From a virus, in IMG/VR virus record IMGVR_UViG_3300042475_005064, positions 1 through 21,294 of that record: a stretch of DNA of 21,294 nt. The stretch is one strand, 5' to 3'. Below, piece by piece: positions 982-15,064 of this stretch. Below the pieces are notes generated by a model, which was not told the DNA's origin, did not search any database, and worked only from the letters and a program-made list of their open reading frames with translations. The position numbers and the translations under genes are program-made. Positions within the stretch are counted from its first letter, which is position 1. Every line of letters begins with the position of its first letter.

Positions 982-1341
982 ATGGCCTGCGGCAAGCATT
1001 GTGTTCTGGAGCTTTACCGCGCCTCTGCGCAGAAACTTAACGATGAAGCTTTCATTCGCGATGCCTTGGCTGAAGCTGCCCGCGTGTCTCATGCGACTCT
1101 GATCGATATTAGAACTCACTCTTTTGTGCCTCAGGGCGTCACTGGCTTTGCGTTGCTTGCCGAGTCCCACATCTCCATCCACACGTGGCCAGAACACGGC
1201 TACGCCGCCGTTGACGTTTTTACCTGCGGGGATAAGACTGACCCGGAATTAGCCTGTTCATTTTTAGCTAAGGCTTTCGAGGCGGCGTCTAACCATATTC
1301 TTACTCTTGATCGATATCTGCCTGATTTAATTCAAGTTTGA
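982..1341 (+). CDS. speD: S-adenosylmethionine decarboxylase proenzyme
   Basis: Prokaryotic class AdoMet decarboxylase of 119 residues, a full-length single-domain form. It self-cleaves to make a pyruvoyl cofactor and supplies decarboxylated AdoMet for spermidine synthesis. The cleavage site is E61-S62-H63 in 'LLAESHISIHTWPEHGYAAV'. S62, H67 and C82 have the same spacing as the known catalytic Ser63, His68 and Cys83 of the Thermotoga enzyme, so it should be active. The start is fixed by an in-frame TAG immediately before the ATG. It lies head-to-head with the glycosyltransferase, with at most about 80 bases for two promoters. speD is an established cyanophage auxiliary metabolic gene; no spermidine synthase is visible here, so the host would have to use the product. 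Confidence 0.95.
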   Translation: MACGKHCVLELYRASAQKLNDEAFIRDALAEAARVSHATLIDIRTHSFVPQGVTGFALLAESHISIHTWPEHGYAAVDVFTCGDKTDPELACSFLAKAFEAASNHILTLDRYLPDLIQV

Positions 1342-6365: not shown

Positions 6366-6959
6366 TTATAACAGTTTCGTCCAGGGATCTACTGATTCTT
6401 GGACGTTTTCTTTTTTAGGTATTGTCGGTGTCTGCGGTTTAGGCATTGCCGGCATCTGCATGAGGATGCTTTGCATGGTTGCTACCTGCTGTTTGAGAGT
6501 CGTATTTTCAGCAACTAACGCCTCCGCTTGATTGCGTGCCCACGCTGTGGCGTTTGCCGTGAGCTGATCGAGTACATTTTCTGGATGCGGGAACTTGTAG
6601 AAAGTCCCCCCTTCCGTCAGCACCTTCTGCCCGCCTTGGTTTTCGGCCAGCGATTCCAGAAAAGTCTCGATTCGCTCTAGGTCTACGCCTGTTTCAAATG
6701 CGAGCTCTTGGGGGACAAGCATCCCCATGTTTTTCGCGTAGAGCGCTGTAAATTTTTGAGCTACTCGTAAGCTCTCTGCTCGATCTTCTTTTTCTTTTCG
6801 TGTTAGTTCGCTTGCTGACGCAGCTCCGGCCAACAATCCGCCAGCGGCCGCAACCGCCGTGGATAGATGAGCAGGCTGAACCAGGGCGACGGTAAAGGTT
6901 AGTACACCGCCGAACAGCAAGGTTGCGCCGTTAAGCAGACTCGACGGGGAGTTGATCAT
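6366..6959 (-). CDS. two-helix membrane protein with C-terminal coil
   Basis: About 197 residues from ATG at 6959. A GTG at 6989 would add ten residues; the ATG gives a 29-base overlap with the primase gene and is preferred. Two hydrophobic helices are visible at about residues 8-27 (LLNGATLLFGGVLTFTVALV) and 33-50 (AVAAAGGLLAGAAS), followed by a charged cytoplasmic-type domain with possible HTH-like helices (LVPQELAFETGVDLERIETF). A helical stretch (AWARNQAEALVAENTTLKQQ) and a Met/Pro-rich tail (MQMPAMPKPQTPTIP) follow. It is co-oriented with and overlaps the primase-helicase, so a role in anchoring replication at the membrane can be imagined, but no homology is recognised. Confidence 0.72.
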   Translation of the reverse strand: MINSPSSLLNGATLLFGGVLTFTVALVQPAHLSTAVAAAGGLLAGAASASELTRKEKEDRAESLRVAQKFTALYAKNMGMLVPQELAFETGVDLERIETFLESLAENQGGQKVLTEGGTFYKFPHPENVLDQLTANATAWARNQAEALVAENTTLKQQVATMQSILMQMPAMPKPQTPTIPKKENVQESVDPWTKLL

Positions 6960-9699
6960 GCGCTTCAAAAGCCGGTTTCCAGAGAACACTGTCAGGGTTA
7001 GAGGCCCACTCGACCGGAGACGGTAGGCGGTTTGAACCGGCCGCCGCTCGGTCAGTCGAGGGGTCGTACGGCTTCAATCGTAGTCCGGTGAACACGGCTT
7101 TGCCATTCACAAACTTAGGTCCAACACCTTCAACTTTTAGCACGTTCCTAATAGTCTCCTTGAGTCGATCGACGAAGCGAGGTTTAGCTGAATGCTTGTA
7201 TCCGTTTGACTTACAGAAATTGACATAGCTCGCATACAGTTCTGCATATGCGTTTTTGACGAACATACCTTTTTCCGCTTCGTCTGTGTTCGGCCTGAAA
7301 GCACCAGCCCCGATCAACGCGTTGCTATTAGGTGCGTACATCGTGCACTCCGCCAGCCACGCTACGTAGGGATTGTTAAAGATCAATGCTTCTAGGTTGG
7401 TCGCGTTAAGTGAGGGCACGTGCTTAACGGGGTTGGCTAGCACGTCCCGCATTTCGTCGAAGGGCATGTCGAGAGCCCATGAGACCACACCGCTAAGCTC
7501 GGGAACTAGGTCGCCTTCCAGTCGATCCGCGTAAATGTTCAGCAGATCTCGCCGTTGGGAGGGCGGCACTACTTTGTCCATGATGATCGTCAGTCGACGA
7601 CGCTCCAGACCGCTGCTGATGTCGGAGGAACTGATGTGCTCGTTAGAAGCGATACATACTAATACCTCGGGTTTGAAGTTTATTACTTCTTTTCCGTACT
7701 TACGCTCTGCTCTTAAGGTATCTGATGCGGATGTAATTTTTTTAAGAACGTCTAAGCGCTTGTTGAAGTTAGCTTCGTCTGTAAGCAGCAGAAGCTTCTT
7801 ACCGATCAGGTTATAGCATTCAAACTTGTTGGTTTCGATTGTTTCCAGGTTGCTGGTGTGCGTGCCGGAGAACCCAGCCAGCGCGATCAGGAGCTGCTGC
7901 ATTGTCGATTTGCCGGTTCCGCCCGGACCCACTAGATGCAGGAAACGCTCGCCCGTCGTGTAGCCGGTCAGAAGCGCACGGCAGAATGCCCGGATGATGA
8001 TTTTCTTGTCTTGCCCAATGCAGGAATCCAGCCACGCGTGGAAATTCGGGCACTGGGCAGCTTTGTCATACGGGAATGCGAGCTTGCTGCGAAGGTAGAG
8101 TTCCTTCTGGCAACCTTCTTGGAACCCCATCGAGTCCCCGTTTAGCACACCGTTTTTAAACGGGATCTTGCCTTTGCTGCTGCTCCAGATGGATACCCGA
8201 CCGCCGTTAACGGACTTAAGTAGTTTGCCCTTCAGAATCTGAAAAACTGAGCTAACGGTTGATGCGCTGTAACGCGGCATCACGCCCGCGGTCACAAAAG
8301 TATCCAGTGTTTTTATAATTCGTCTTTTGATGTGCTGTTCGTCCTGTACGTACCAGATACCCTCGTCTAAGTCGTACGTGAAGAACTCGTCCAGAGATGA
8401 ATCAAATAGAAATTCGTTACCGTAGTTATTTACGATGATGTCTGCGACATCGTTCTCGGAGAACTGACGATTTCCTTGCTGCAGCTGCACCAGCTGAGCT
8501 GGAGTTGACGGCGTGGAAGCCATGGGATCTGGGGGTGTTGATGTTGGTGTTGATGTTGCTGTCGGCTTCGCATCCATCTCTCGAACGAGATCGTCGAAAG
8601 TCAGGACGGAGTTAGTCGGCTTGGGCTTCTTTGACGCAATTTCTGTACGTACTTTTTCCGTACAGGTGGTCTCAAAGATTTCTCGATGGGTGCTCTTGAG
8701 TCTTTTCCATGCAGCTAGAGACCTGTCCTCTGATGCCATGACCACGGCGGGCTGCAGAGCGTCTGGATCTGTGATGCTGTTCAGGATCCGATTAAATTTG
8801 CCATCCAGCACAGGGTCGTATTCGTAGATATTCTCGAACACCCGGTGTGCGATTGTCAAGGGGGGTTCGCGTGTTGCAATCCCCTGAGCGTTCAGCCAGT
8901 TGCTCCAGCCGATGATCTCCTTCAGGGCTATCGCCAAGGCGAAGGAGCGATCCTCCACTTCCTCGCCGTCCAGCATCGACCTGACTGTTCCGCTTACTAA
9001 GCGCTCTAGGTCGACTCCTTCTGGAGACTGTTGAGTGCTCAGGTGCTGCTCCGCGTCTCTCGCGGTCTCTTCCGGCGGAGGCAGCGTGGCGTAGACCGCA
9101 TAAGCTTCGTCAATTTTTGAAGCCGGTATGAATCTATCTGTGACTACCAGTAAGCTAGAAGTTCCCTTTCCGCCGTAAAATAAATTGACGGCTTGGGTAG
9201 CACGTCGGTCTGATCCTGGTATTTGCTGCGCAATATGCCTGGTGAACCACTGGTAGAAGCCAGCATCAATAATTGGCTTCTCTAAACCAAACACCAGTCG
9301 GAATCTGGGCCACGTCTCTGTGTGAGACGGAGATAAATAAGCAAGACTCAGATATTTGTCACATATATCCAGCTCTAGTGCTTGAGCTACGTCCAGTTCT
9401 TGTTTTTGTATCTTGTTGCCGTCTTTATCTTTCCCGTCTGCTTGGTTGTCAATGTCGATGATTATGACACCGGCTTTGATTGCGCCCGTGTTTCCTTCAC
9501 GTCTTCGTCCATCGACCAGATGCCAGGCACATAAACCAGCCTGCTGCGTGGTGACAGCGTCGGCTAGAGCCGCAATGTCCTTCTCTTGGGGAAGCCAATT
9601 GTTGTTGAAAGCGGCAAAGTTGCCTCCTGCCGCAATCTTACCCGTCGCAGGGTTGACGTACTCAGAGACTGCGTAGTTGATCGAGAAGAAAAAGTCCAT
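6931..9699 (-). CDS. AEP-type primase fused to D5-like SF3 helicase
   Basis: Replicative primase-helicase of 922 residues. The N-terminal 230 residues resemble archaeo-eukaryotic-type primases: IDID at 81-84 (metal aspartates D82, D84), a SxH-type motif SPSHT at 123-127 and PRFRLVF after it. A Ser/Thr/Pro linker occupies about 378-402. The C-terminal half is a superfamily 3 helicase: Walker A GPGGTGKS at 591-598, Walker B LLLLTDEAN at 636-644, sensor ASNE at 684-687 with N686, and an arginine-finger region GLERRR near 697-702. The D5_N-like region lies before Walker A. ATG start with a strong AGGAG site three bases upstream. It would prime and unwind DNA ahead of the family A polymerase encoded 7 kb away on the same strand. 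Confidence 0.92.
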   Translation of the reverse strand: MDFFFSINYAVSEYVNPATGKIAAGGNFAAFNNNWLPQEKDIAALADAVTTQQAGLCAWHLVDGRRREGNTGAIKAGVIIIDIDNQADGKDKDGNKIQKQELDVAQALELDICDKYLSLAYLSPSHTETWPRFRLVFGLEKPIIDAGFYQWFTRHIAQQIPGSDRRATQAVNLFYGGKGTSSLLVVTDRFIPASKIDEAYAVYATLPPPEETARDAEQHLSTQQSPEGVDLERLVSGTVRSMLDGEEVEDRSFALAIALKEIIGWSNWLNAQGIATREPPLTIAHRVFENIYEYDPVLDGKFNRILNSITDPDALQPAVVMASEDRSLAAWKRLKSTHREIFETTCTEKVRTEIASKKPKPTNSVLTFDDLVREMDAKPTATSTPTSTPPDPMASTPSTPAQLVQLQQGNRQFSENDVADIIVNNYGNEFLFDSSLDEFFTYDLDEGIWYVQDEQHIKRRIIKTLDTFVTAGVMPRYSASTVSSVFQILKGKLLKSVNGGRVSIWSSSKGKIPFKNGVLNGDSMGFQEGCQKELYLRSKLAFPYDKAAQCPNFHAWLDSCIGQDKKIIIRAFCRALLTGYTTGERFLHLVGPGGTGKSTMQQLLIALAGFSGTHTSNLETIETNKFECYNLIGKKLLLLTDEANFNKRLDVLKKITSASDTLRAERKYGKEVINFKPEVLVCIASNEHISSSDISSGLERRRLTIIMDKVVPPSQRRDLLNIYADRLEGDLVPELSGVVSWALDMPFDEMRDVLANPVKHVPSLNATNLEALIFNNPYVAWLAECTMYAPNSNALIGAGAFRPNTDEAEKGMFVKNAYAELYASYVNFCKSNGYKHSAKPRFVDRLKETIRNVLKVEGVGPKFVNGKAVFTGLRLKPYDPSTDRAAAGSNRLPSPVEWASNPDSVLWKPAFEAHDQLPVESA

Positions 9700-10587: not shown

Positions 10588-10953
10588 TCAGAACGACATC
10601 TGAAATGGTCGAGAGTCTGTATCTTCATCATCGTCGTCATCTTCTTCGTCGTTTCCCACACTGTCTTCATCTTCGTCGGAATCCAAAAAGAATTCAGATT
10701 TTTGGTAGTCGAAGTCGCGGTTGTGGCTGCTCAGCTCTTCGGCGAGGCAAAGACCTGCGCAATAAGAGTCGGTAATAATCTCCGCGCACTCAGCGGCAGA
10801 TCTAGCGGTTCCCTCCGGTGAGACACACTCCTGGAGAAGTTGGTCGGACACCAGTAGGGCTGTGACTTTTTCGAGAAGTGTATTTGTTTTTGTGAGTTGA
10901 TCCAGAACATCGCGTTGGAACTTGTCAAATTTTTGCCGCCGAGTCATTGTCAT
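10588..10953 (-). CDS. small protein with coiled N-terminus and extreme acidic tail
   Basis: 121 residues from the ATG at 10953, which forms an ATGA overlap with the stop of the gene upstream; a longer frame to 11022 exists but would run inside that gene. Residues about 5-40 are helical (FDKFQRDVLDQLTKTNTLLE). From about residue 90 the chain is almost only Asp/Glu (DSDEDEDS, then NDEEDDDDDEDTDS) and ends RPFQMSF. An acidic tail ending in Phe is characteristic of bacterial SSB and phage T7 gp2.5, where it recruits replication proteins; here no OB fold accompanies it. It could be a partner-recruiting adaptor, a DNA mimic or an SSB-tail competitor. Function inferred only from composition and place between a nuclease and a methyltransferase-like gene. 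Confidence 0.75.
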   Translation of the reverse strand: MTMTRRQKFDKFQRDVLDQLTKTNTLLEKVTALLVSDQLLQECVSPEGTARSAAECAEIITDSYCAGLCLAEELSSHNRDFDYQKSEFFLDSDEDEDSVGNDEEDDDDDEDTDSRPFQMSF

Positions 10954-11492
10954 GTTAAAGAAGGCAGAGGGTCTACACGATCCCAGTCCAGACCAAAGGT
11001 TATCTGAGTTCCGTCGTGCCACTGCTCGGGGCGTTGGAAGACAAACCAGCAGCTGGTGACGGAATCCCGCGTGGAACCAATGGCGCGAAATTTGGGACGC
11101 GGATTAAGGACAATCATATTGCTGATCTTGTTTGCTAACAGAAAGCTTTTACGTTTGGCTACTGGTTCTATGAACGACAGTCGGTCTAGTACAGCTATGC
11201 CTTGTGTTGCAATTTGGATGCCGTATTCAAGTATATACTCTGTGTAGTCTCCTAAGCCTGTTGTTGCTGCTATGACCCAATCAAACTTTTTCTCTTTCTG
11301 ACCGACCCACCAGACGGGATCCATTAAGTTTGTTTCATCCTTGTTTTCAACGACGTTAAAGTTATGACGTCGCAGTTGGTCACTCAGTATCGACAATGGA
11401 TCAAATGGGACTAAGACTGAGCCTGTGATAAAACTGTGTTTTATGAGCGCGTGGGTGACCCCGTTTGGGAGTTGATAAAAAGAATCTGCCAT
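10950..11492 (-). CDS. degenerate SAM-methyltransferase-like protein
   Basis: 180 residues. The order of parts fits the phage N6-adenine/Rossmann methyltransferase type: N-terminal LPNGVTHALIKH, a strand where motif I should be (SVLVPFDPLS, residues 25-34), FDWVIAATTGLG (70-81) where the catalytic (D/N)PP(Y/F) should be, then AVLDRLSFIEPVAKRKSFL (100-118) and a closing VTSCWFVFQRPE strand. The glycine-rich SAM loop and the NPPY motif are both absent, so it is probably not a catalytic methyltransferase. It may have become a binding or structural protein, or be a family I misplace. It is coupled by ATGA overlap to the acidic-tail protein and diverges from nblA. Confidence 0.65.
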   Translation of the reverse strand: MADSFYQLPNGVTHALIKHSFITGSVLVPFDPLSILSDQLRRHNFNVVENKDETNLMDPVWWVGQKEKKFDWVIAATTGLGDYTEYILEYGIQIATQGIAVLDRLSFIEPVAKRKSFLLANKISNMIVLNPRPKFRAIGSTRDSVTSCWFVFQRPEQWHDGTQITFGLDWDRVDPLPSLT

Positions 11493-11584
11493 TGGTCGGG
11501 TTGTAGGACTGTCAGAGTTTAACCAAAATTTCCGGTCTACCCGGTAAATGCTGCCTATTATGACGTCAGTGCATTCTGTAGATT
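11493..11584. promoter_or_regulatory. divergent promoter region before nblA
   Basis: A 92-base gap between a minus-strand gene and nblA. TATTAT at 11556-11561 is a fair -10 box for nblA, 23 bases before its ATG; on the other strand the overlapping CATAAT is a -10 candidate for the methyltransferase-like gene. TGACGTCA (11561-11568) overlaps the -10 and could be an operator. CCGG-TCTAC-CCGG at 11532-11544 is a small inverted repeat. No good -35 was found. Confidence 0.35.
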
Positions 11585-11833
11585 ATGTTAAATCTGGAAT
11601 GGCTGAACACGGAACAAGAGTTTTTACATAAGCGAGTTTGCGGAGATTTTGCCAAGCTCGACCGAGAACAAATGAAAGATGTTTTTGAATCGGTGCATAA
11701 ACAGTATTTAATCAGGAACAGCTTGTTTTCTCGTTTGGCCTCTTGGTGCGCCCGCAACGGAGTGGTCTTGCCTGCCTTTGAGGAGTTGCTTTCCCCGAAA
11801 GAAGTTCAGCATCCGACTCCCTTGGAGGAATAA
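11585..11833 (+). CDS. nblA: NblA-like phycobilisome degradation protein
   Basis: 82 residues. The core fits the NblA family: LNTEQEFLHKRV near residue 7, then LDREQMKDVFESVHKQYLIR and NSLFSRLASW, matching the family's 'L-x-x-EQ-F ... (M/L)SREQ ... L..LY.Q.M.RENLY..L' pattern of two helices. Cellular NblA is about 55-65 residues; this copy has about 20 extra residues at the C-terminus (ending PTPLEE). NblA binds phycobiliproteins and hands them to Clp protease, dismantling the light-harvesting antenna. Phage copies are known in freshwater cyanophages. It is the only plus-strand gene in a 15-kb block of minus-strand genes, with its own putative promoter and hairpin terminator. Identity rests on pattern recognition without a profile search. 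Confidence 0.8.
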   Translation: MLNLEWLNTEQEFLHKRVCGDFAKLDREQMKDVFESVHKQYLIRNSLFSRLASWCARNGVVLPAFEELLSPKEVQHPTPLEE

Positions 11834-11835
11834 AA

Positions 11836-11857
11836 AAAGCGGTCGTGAGACCGCTTT
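11836..11857. terminator. bidirectional rho-independent terminator
   Basis: Nine-base-pair perfect stem AAAGCGGTC / GACCGCTTT with a GTGA tetraloop. On the minus strand the stem runs into seven T residues, a strong terminator for any transcript passing from the gene that ends at 11884. On the plus strand it follows the nblA stop by two bases and has only TTTG, a weaker terminator. Confidence 0.85.
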
Positions 11858-11883
11858 GTACCTTGGCTTTCCTTAACGTTAGC

Positions 11884-12699
11884 TCAAAAGTCGATACCTA
11901 GAGCTTTTGCTTGTTCCGCCGTAAGTTCGATTGGTTTTTTCGCCTTCGCACTAGGTGGTTCGTTCTCGACTTTTTCGTCCGCTTCCGCAGACTTCAGAGC
12001 CTTTGCTGGCCCTGCGCTAGCGAATGAACGTTCCGGGGGCGCGCCTCGCTCGGCAGCAAATCGAGCTTTGATCTCAGTGTGATCTGCACCCAAGGGCAAT
12101 TCGACCAAATCTGAGCCGGGGATGTGGGACTTGAGTGCCGATGCACACAGAGTGCCTCCCTTGTCGACAAGCCAACTGTTAACGTCTTCAATCAATTTGA
12201 TTTCCTCCTCGTTCGCCGGCGGTCTGTCGGAAAATTCGAGAGCATTAAAATTGATCTTCGCGCCATCGGCGCCGGTCATTGGATCCCGCTCATTAAAGCT
12301 GCGAGTCACGAATTTCGTCGTGGTGATCACCGACGCGCAGTTGATTCGATTGTTGTAGAGCGTCTGGAAGTAACTGATGAAGTTCTTCTGAGAAGACTTG
12401 CCTGAAATCATCGAAGTCGTTACGCAACGCGGAGGCAACAACCTGTGATTTGGGCTGACTCCGATGTAAGCAATGCGCAGAAATTCTTCTTGGTTGCGCA
12501 TACCTAGGTTGCCGAAGTAAGGAGTAAATCCCACCAGGACAAACTCAATAGGGATTCCGTTGTCGTTCCTATCAACAATCGCAGAGTCTGGGTCGACATC
12601 AGATTTCCAACGTCGAGCCTGTAGATCTATTCGAAGTGTGTGCGGCGGTACATTACACAGAATTTCGTCTTGGGAGAATTGACCAGCAATGAAAACCAT
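11884..12699 (-). CDS. hypothetical protein, 271 residues, replication region
   Basis: No family named with confidence. The first 140 residues look like a compact mixed alpha/beta domain (HTLRIDLQARRWKSDVDPDS, EFVLVGFTPYFGNLG, FLRIAYIGVSPNHRLLPPRC). From about residue 205 it becomes a disordered, charged region with Ala/Glu/Lys, and it ends in a short helix PIELTAEQAKALGIDF. A terminal IDF after a flexible tail recalls replication proteins with C-terminal recruiting peptides, and the next gene upstream ends similarly. It is 13 bases downstream of the SSB-like gene and ends 27 bases before the bidirectional terminator, so it is the last gene of its transcript. A single-strand-binding or recombination accessory role is a guess from context. 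Confidence 0.65.
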   Translation of the reverse strand: MVFIAGQFSQDEILCNVPPHTLRIDLQARRWKSDVDPDSAIVDRNDNGIPIEFVLVGFTPYFGNLGMRNQEEFLRIAYIGVSPNHRLLPPRCVTTSMISGKSSQKNFISYFQTLYNNRINCASVITTTKFVTRSFNERDPMTGADGAKINFNALEFSDRPPANEEEIKLIEDVNSWLVDKGGTLCASALKSHIPGSDLVELPLGADHTEIKARFAAERGAPPERSFASAGPAKALKSAEADEKVENEPPSAKAKKPIELTAEQAKALGIDF

Positions 12700-12712
12700 G
12701 GTTAGTACTTAA

Positions 12713-13357
12713 TCAGAGGGAGAAGTCAATAGAACCGATAGCAGCAGCAGCTACTTTACCTTTTTCAGGGTCGACAGCTTTTTTTGGAGCTTGTTTAGAG
12801 GACTTGGGGAGGTAGAGGATCTTATCTACAGTGTAGTTGAGATAATTCCTATCATCCTTTTCACTTGTTGAGACCTTGCCTACTGCGATAGTAGGTGTGC
12901 CCGGTGCGAGTTCAGAGAGCTGTTTAGACAGTTCACCCCATGCTGTCATCTTGAACCAAGCTGTTTCGTTTTCTTCCGTTTGCCATGCAAGTGAACGATT
13001 AGTTACCGTCGTATCTGAAAGTTCTACTTCATCGGCTTTAGGGCCGAGACCGCCCGTCGCCATGAAAACGTTGATGGCGAGGAGATCTTCGAAGTTATCT
13101 TCTGTCACAATCAACATGGGTTGCATTTTCAGCACACCGTCAATTGTTGGTTTAGTAGGTCCGAGTGCGAGAACGGTTTGTCCTACTTCGAGTTTTTTAA
13201 GTAGTTTTCCTACATAGTGACTTGCTTGTTGGAGGAGTTGAAATTTTGTTTCGACTCTTTTGTCATTTGACGGAAGGGATTCGGCTAGAACGTTCACGAT
13301 GCCGTCGTTATCATCCGCTGCGGCGGTGATTTTCAGGCCCATTAGAAACAGATTCAT
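12713..13357 (-). CDS. SSB-like protein with two tandem OB folds
   Basis: 214 residues. Residues 95-184 fit a single-stranded-DNA-binding OB fold: INVFMATGGLGPKADEVEL, then TAWFKMTAWGELSKQLSEL, then APGTPTIAVGKVSTSEKDDR and YLNYTVDKILYL. Residues 1-90 read as a second, more diverged copy: NLFLMGLKITAAADD, KFQLLQQASHYVGKLLKKL, EVGQTVLALGP and KMQPMLIVTED in the same order. A Lys-rich linker follows and the end is IGSIDFSL, an SSB-like hydrophobic tip without much acidity. The ATG at 13357 is preferred over the ATG at 13342 because it keeps the first strand of OB fold 1. It overlaps the upstream regulator gene by 47 bases and precedes the 271-residue gene by 13. Confidence 0.72.
   Translation of the reverse strand: MNLFLMGLKITAAADDNDGIVNVLAESLPSNDKRVETKFQLLQQASHYVGKLLKKLEVGQTVLALGPTKPTIDGVLKMQPMLIVTEDNFEDLLAINVFMATGGLGPKADEVELSDTTVTNRSLAWQTEENETAWFKMTAWGELSKQLSELAPGTPTIAVGKVSTSEKDDRNYLNYTVDKILYLPKSSKQAPKKAVDPEKGKVAAAAIGSIDFSL

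Positions 13358-13909: not shown

Positions 13910-15064
<1,155 letters not shown>

Follow-up and report, generated by a model that had tools for sequence, protein, structure and literature searches.

Introduction

NblA links phycobilisomes to ClpC, and the NblAs known so far carry a ClpC-binding motif near the N terminus and a phycobiliprotein-binding one near the C terminus, according to the available excerpts of six papers (PMC9602691, PMC5332604, PMC9382816, PMC4103541, PMC7966870, PMC5780444). The same excerpts place phage-borne nblA in Ma-LMM01, MaMV-DC, PaV-LD, marine viral metagenomes and marine isolates, and describe activity of phage nblA upon heterologous expression; one variant from a marine metagenomic phage is reported as active in the excerpt of PMC9602691. 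Among the annotated cases, Ma-LMM01 encodes an NblA of 79 aa and PaV-LD one of 54 aa, and both genes, like the one studied here, are phage-borne and located near replication or nucleotide-metabolism genes. The NblAs of marine cyanopodoviruses and cyanomyoviruses, including S-SCSM1, and of uncultured marine cyanophages are likewise cyanophage NblAs, a likeness that we draw by description. The NblA of uncultured marine cyanophages was reportedly treated by Nadel et al. in 2019, and an uncultured lineage carrying NblA, an integrase and a split polymerase is said to have been described by Flores-Uribe et al. in the same year. Phage-borne NblA as such is already known.

In this work, we examined a virus contig of 21,294 bases (IMG/VR record IMGVR_UViG_3300042475_005064, positions 1 to 21,294), referred to as the window, that is, the whole stretch of DNA analysed; megablast of the window against the phage collection gave no match. 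An original prediction made from the letters of this DNA had proposed an NblA-like gene, isolated on the strand opposite to a replication block, equipped with its own -10 box and terminator, extended at the C terminus, and acquired late from a host.

Results

Gene layout

The features of the locus are collected in Table 1. As predicted, nblA is a plus-strand ORF flanked by minus-strand genes; further candidate plus-strand ORFs are listed in the block. The opposite-strand placement sets it apart from the two annotated phage genes: Ma-LMM01 has nblA co-oriented with the neighbouring nrdA and nrdB, and PaV-LD has it co-oriented with thymidine kinase. Regarding the two flanking genes, gp180 displayed a partial match to a DNA methyltransferase family (phrog_799, E 2.8e-6, residues 95-158), and no family match was found for gp271 in the profile searches. 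Elsewhere in the window, a S-adenosylmethionine decarboxylase gene (982-1341, plus strand; Pfam E 7.6e-40) is common to many related contigs, and the C-terminal end of gp384 (13910-15064, minus strand) consists of long proline/alanine and poly-glycine tracts, relatives aligning to this protein only partly.

Table 1. Coordinates of the nblA locus and of other features of the window used in the analyses.
Feature	Coordinates	Strand	Basis or use
nblA-like gene, 82 aa plus stop	11585..11833	+	ATG ORF; Pfam NblA E 5e-5; codon-position bias
NblA core, residues 10-51	11612..11737	+	PF04485 match on the record; E10, Q11, F13 and L51 kept
Conserved C-terminal segment past the NblA core, residues 54-69 (W54 C55 ... 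L62 P63 ... L68)	11744..11791	+	Residue counts in 40 relatives; predicted short helix 65-69
Variable tip, residues 70-82, ending PTPLEE	11792..11830	+	Weakly conserved
gp180, divergent neighbour of nblA	10950..11492	-	Flank in the synteny count
gp271, convergent neighbour of nblA	11884..12699	-	Flank in the synteny count
SSB-like protein, upstream of gp271	12713..13357	-	Pfam SSB match at E 3.1e-4 with 21.2 bits (under the cut-off, 26)
Primase/helicase	6931..9699	-	phrog_1156 E 2.5e-41
63-aa ORF antisense to the nblA region	11566-11757	-	ORF list
Intrinsic-terminator-like hairpin abutting the nblA stop	11836..11857	-	Terminator scan; T-tract lies on this strand
92-nt divergent region between gp180 (-) and nblA (+), candidate promoter region	11493..11584	.	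Conserved blocks 11509-11533 and 11553-11584
TATTAT, candidate -10 element	11556..11561	+	Inside conserved block 11553-11584

Assignment to the NblA family

The best Pfam family of the 82-aa protein was NblA, with an E of 5e-5 and a score of 24.1 bits over residues 10-51 (cut-off 25), and the whole record searched with PF04485 gave 24.2 bits at the same place, under the cut-off as well. A family profile constructed from 27 distinct NblA-like proteins of the first relative sets retrieved 3cs5 (E 3.7e-4) and 1ojh (E 6e-4) from the PDB, both of them NblA and the top two among the 7 matches listed. Aligned by hhalign against 11 Nostocales NblAs, the phage family matched over residues 3-53 without gaps (E 1.7e-5, probability 78.6); these 11 sequences were gathered with a 1ojh-derived query, so that the hhalign and PDB tests are not independent of each other. 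The family profile also scored 17-24 bits at NblA in 80 of 80 isolated Nostocales loci, and it gave no match at the nblA locus when run on three whole Nostocales genomes. A match to NblA, as called for by the original prediction, was obtained with the family profile and by hhalign, the single protein lying just short of the Pfam cut-off, and the sequence comparisons support the ORF as real and NblA-like.

Pfam NblA matched 15 of the 27 relatives at E up to 1 (best 6e-9) and left 12 without a match, and NCBIfam NblA matched 3 of 27. For the window protein itself, no match was obtained in NCBIfam or, at E up to 0.01, in PHROGs, and phmmer with this single sequence found no NblA among PDB sequences. 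Matches to DUF4158 (11 of 27 relatives, best E 0.0036) and to a Tn3 transposase (4 of 27, best 0.045), which overlap this stretch in part, were regarded as chance. By tblastn against 50,697 phage records, the window protein yielded weak matches only (26 records, best E 0.3), and a Nostoc NblA and the L040 protein none; PaV-LD and Ma-LMM01 nevertheless carry annotated nblA genes, and absence is not to be inferred from this search.

Predicted structure and the conserved C-terminal segment

The AlphaFold2 model of the window protein displays helices at residues 9-23, 27-58 and 65-69 (mean pLDDT 84.1, pTM 0.56), and a Nostoc NblA model used as control has helices at 12-25 and 30-58, numbered with three residues before its Met. 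The first two predicted helices stand in the NblA register of the control, in agreement with the two-helix fold expected beforehand. The window-protein model was compared with PDB and BFVD by Foldseek, and with the three chains that Foldseek offered by VIA-align, and no meaningful match emerged; these negatives were set aside because the positive control failed too, the Nostoc NblA model likewise missing 1ojh.

Across 40 relatives, the NblA core is strongly conserved at E10 (40/40), Q11 (38/40), F13 (39/40) and L51 (38/40). The N-terminal EQxF motif of NblA is accordingly kept in the phage family, and we infer that E10, Q11 and F13 form the ClpC motif. Position 53, adjoining the end of the core, is variable (S in 10, K in 9 and N in 5 of 40), and conservation resumes immediately after it, at W54 (35/40), C55 (36/40), L62 (39/40), P63 (40/40) and L68 (37/40). 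Conservation drops again past residue 69: the last residue is missing in 20 of the 40 dereplicated relatives, and the 27-member consensus keeps only H76 and P77 in the tip. The C-terminal excess noticed in the original prediction, which tentatively gave it a binding function, is real, but a role for the PTPLEE ending is unsupported, this ending not being conserved; the conserved part comprises residues 54-69.

This segment is a new point. The cyanobacterial NblAs (PF04485; 1ojh, 3cs5) resemble the phage protein in the ungapped homology over 3-53, the EQxF motif and the two-helix register, and differ from it in that the phage NblA, at 82 aa, bears the conserved residues 54-69, which by eye are absent from the 37 cyanobacterial sequences compared. 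The NblAs of Ma-LMM01 and PaV-LD likewise lack the W-C...LP-x-F segment. A literature search on cyanophage nblA with the wording 'C-terminal extension', and that wording only, found nothing. Three of the 37 cyanobacterial sequences (L299-L301), rare NblA-like proteins in the family of genome G188, have longer C-termini unlike the phage segment.

Selection on the coding frame

Nucleotide differences between the nblA of the window and those of five relatives, counted at codon positions 1/2/3, were 6/5/36 for L008, 23/10/44 for L012, 16/12/35 for L020, 19/11/46 for L023 and 23/20/37 for L033 (first 69 codons). The NG86 dN/dS was 0.03 against L008 and 0.08 against L020, dS being saturated and not computable for L012, L023 and L033. 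The antisense frames of nblA contain stops in the relatives, with the exception of one open frame in L008. The nblA ORF is under purifying selection.

A fixed position across relatives

Relatives were collected mainly with the primase/helicase, a bait picked regardless of nblA. A scan with the window protein gave 12 loci, a primase scan 50, and a ten-member primase alignment 258 relatives, of which the best 80 were used; pooling yielded 108 distinct contigs, or 109 sequences with the window. All contigs were found by primase except L007, L012 and L013, and the set was therefore not selected for nblA; 55 of the 108 were gathered later than the sets supplying the profile. We use 'lineage' for a primase identity of about 53% or more among the matches listed (best 80 of 258).

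Both gp180 and gp271 are spanned by 105 of the 109 sequences, and 104 of these 105 carry exactly one nblA-like match between the two genes, on the opposite strand. When the window is excluded together with L007, L012 and L013, which nblA alone had retrieved, the regular slot was present in 100 of 101. The exception is L059, where the nblA match comes in two overlapping pieces; at this locus (L059:1666-1901) the primase match is also partial, and the split may result from sequencing error or decay. Among the four contigs that do not span the region, L034 and L127 have an nblA match beside gp180, and L090 and L133 gave none within the available stretch. L044, L046 and L059 were missed by tblastn and all three were recovered by the family profile. 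In L036, about 3.6 kb separate gp271 from nblA, versus 0.3-0.9 kb elsewhere, and a 518-aa ORF lies within this interval. The fixation of nblA in one slot across a broad S-EIV1-related lineage is, to the best of the comparisons made here, the second new point of this work.

Co-inheritance and age of the gene

Pairwise distances were compared in the 79 of 109 sequences having all five proteins complete, L059 being left out. NblA distances correlated with those of primase (r 0.79), gp271 (0.85), gp180 (0.78) and SSB (0.73), and none of 999 permutations reached any of these four values. After dereplication at 95% primase identity, the correlation of NblA with primase across the remaining 40 sequences was 0.70 (0/999 permutations); for comparison, primase correlated with SSB at 0.74, with gp271 at 0.80 and with gp180 at 0.78. 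Since 104 of 105 sequences have nblA in one slot and one orientation, and the gene has diverged together with its neighbours, the late insertion of a host gene suggested by the original prediction is contradicted within the sampled lineage, of which nblA is a standing component rather than a recent capture.

In the NblA tree, the 27 phage sequences formed one split with a support of 55, too weak for dating the gain of nblA. Either this gain predates the radiation of the sampled lineage, or S-EIV1 has lost the gene. No prophage relatives were found in a partial genome sample: searching genome contigs with the primase alignment gave 153 stretches by two peptide patterns, none of which was confirmed. 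Matches to the window polymerase in 266 of 295 genomes of the G188 family, with at most 41% identity among the matches listed, were taken as host polymerases.

Flanking regions

The 92-nt divergent region is 0.78-0.96 identical to that of six relatives, versus 0.71-0.82 for the nblA coding sequence. Four patterns derived from its conserved blocks were sought in the window and in an 86-kb relative, allowing at most two substitutions; they recur at the orthologous site, the only off-site recurrences being three inexact matches, all of the 12-base pattern. A two-hexamer (sigma-70-type) scan of 10900-12800 returned no plus-strand site and one on the minus strand, with 1.6 expected by chance. As for the proposed -10 box, the TATTAT hexamer is indeed located within a conserved block, but no plus-strand two-hexamer promoter accompanies it. 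A promoter in the divergent region is plausible. As to the independent timing of antenna breakdown suggested by the original prediction, the layout makes it plausible that nblA is a separate, divergently read unit.

The scanned region holds 4 terminator-like sites, 2.2 being expected. The hairpin next to the nblA stop, which had been predicted as the gene's own terminator, proved to have the opposite polarity: its minus-strand tail is TTTTATTCCT, and read on the plus strand it has A's before it and GTACC after it. Of 70 distinct nblA 3' junctions, the script assigned 22 to minus-strand polarity and 0 to plus-strand polarity, labelled 13 as 'neither' and found no stem in the other 35; L023 was counted as 'neither' by the script and by eye has the same A-tract and hairpin, the count being kept as computed. 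The hairpin would serve the SSB/gp271 side, ending transcripts that come through gp271.

In wide-gap contigs, an extra gene of 117-138 aa was observed on the strand of gp271, reading toward nblA, in 11 of 11 examined (L026, L028, L030, L031, L037, L060, L095, L109, L129, L076 and L082), overlapping the 3' end of nblA tail-to-tail by 1-89 nt. By eye this gene comes in two unrelated flavours, with a CxxC zinc-ribbon-like start in L076 and L082.

Phage lineage and hosts

The 86-kb contig (G004, L006) carries an NblA identical to that of the window, and its virion genes, which the window itself lacks, have Synechococcus phage S-EIV1 as nearest annotated relative (major head 67.8%, TerL 51.8% and portal-like protein 45.9% identity). 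S-EIV1 came from a high arctic lake, with Synechococcus sp. PCCC-A2c as the isolation host. The window virus very probably infects cyanobacteria, and based on this link we infer a Synechococcus-type host. S-EIV1 differs in several respects: identity is only 28.5% for the primase and 38.7% for the exo258-like protein, an ssDNA-binding protein of its own is annotated, and tblastn of gp271 and SSB214 against it gave no match at E up to 1. No nblA was found in S-EIV1 with the NblA profile up to E 10, and a 22-residue tblastn match of NblA (E 0.07), lying within the major-head-protein stretch, was taken as chance. In the available excerpt of PMC5332604, the genome group with S-EIV1 is listed with hli and ptoX, and nblA is absent from that list.

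Photosystem genes were searched with PF00124, which we take to be the psbA/psbD type: 0 of 10 lineage contigs, possibly incomplete, gave a match, nor did S-EIV1, and the S. elongatus control did.

On the host side, 292 genomes were sampled from the phylum to which a Nostoc genome belongs, and NblA exceeded the cut-off in 102 of them. In the family of G093, the negative control, NblA exceeded the cut-off in 0 of 239 genomes (41 of 239 at E up to 0.05; 32 of 239 at the same threshold with the family profile, best 0.0018), and a phycobiliprotein search in G093, G010, G016 and G027 gave no match. G188, a genome of 2.4 Mb, has 11 phycobiliprotein matches; in its family, 7 of 300 genomes had an NblA profile match with E no higher than 0.01 and 2 exceeded the cut-off, a low count that profile insensitivity may explain. 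The phage profile gave one stop-interrupted match in this family (E 0.0067) and none at E 0.001 or better in the 300 genomes. In three cyanobacterial genomes of about 3 Mb (L294-L296, from G154, G190 and G275), the NblA match is broken by stops and there are only a few, likewise interrupted, phycobiliprotein matches, as would be expected if the antenna had decayed along with its degradation factor.

Discussion

The locus combines NblA homology, the helix pattern of the family, a fixed position, a conserved C-terminal segment and purifying selection, and we consider the gene an NblA-family phage gene, ordinary in kind. Its product is likely a two-helix Clp adaptor, made in the infected, probably Synechococcus-type, cell, where it would lead to the dismantling of the phycobilisome antenna. 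By analogy with known NblAs, it would deliver proteins of the phycobilisome to ClpC/Clp of the host, and it may also loosen the phycobilisome rods; dismantling the antenna would lower light input and free amino acids for phage proteins. The gene would be read from the divergent region, shielded from antisense read-through by the minus-strand terminator at its 3' end, and residues 54-69 may provide a lineage-specific extra contact or cap.

Other explanations were weighed against the same evidence. A Clp adaptor derived from NblA could have been re-aimed, keeping the N-terminal docking and presenting some other host or phage protein through residues 54-69; this would suit the retention of E10, Q11 and F13 in 38 to 40 of 40 relatives, the variability of position 53, which adjoins the core, and a C-terminal segment absent from the canonical NblAs compared. 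However, 38 of 40 relatives retain L51, where helix 2 ends, NblA homology is most simply read as NblA function, and known phage NblAs act on phycobilisomes in the available excerpt of PMC9602691, and we judge such a change of target unlikely. Still less probable is an unrelated small helical phage protein with a convergent likeness to NblA. Two-helix proteins readily give weak chance matches, the single-sequence score falls below the curated cut-off (24.1 versus 25), and DUF4158 is weakly matched by 11 of 27 relatives (best E 0.0036); yet the profile comparisons agree on one ungapped register and place NblA first in the PDB among the matches listed, and the NblA family model is not promiscuous in the G093 family, scoring over its cut-off in 0 of 239 genomes of this family, whose four tested members lack phycobiliproteins.

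A recent insertion of a host nblA into the window phage would account for a gene opposite in strand to its surroundings and missing from S-EIV1. We give this almost no credence: slot and strand are shared by 104 of 105 spanning sequences, NblA distances follow those of primase, gp271, gp180 and SSB, the 27 phage sequences form one tree split (support only 55), and among 300 genomes of the G188 family none is matched by the family profile at an E of 0.001 or lower. A bolder variant, rather unlikely though somewhat less so than a change of target, would be a phage-specific class of NblA, with residues 54-69 as a second docking surface, supplying antenna degradation (or that of other Clp substrates) to picocyanobacteria that mostly lack a recognisable canonical nblA. 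If true, a function lacking in the host would have been retained throughout a lineage for which the searches gave no psbA.

Returning to the antenna-dismantling adaptor, which we favour, the conserved segment 54-69 makes the role of the extra C terminus testable by truncation. If NblA function holds, these phages would rely on antenna removal and not on the maintenance of photosystem II. Host-like phage genes are often patchy in their distribution; here, an antenna-degradation gene behaves like a core gene.
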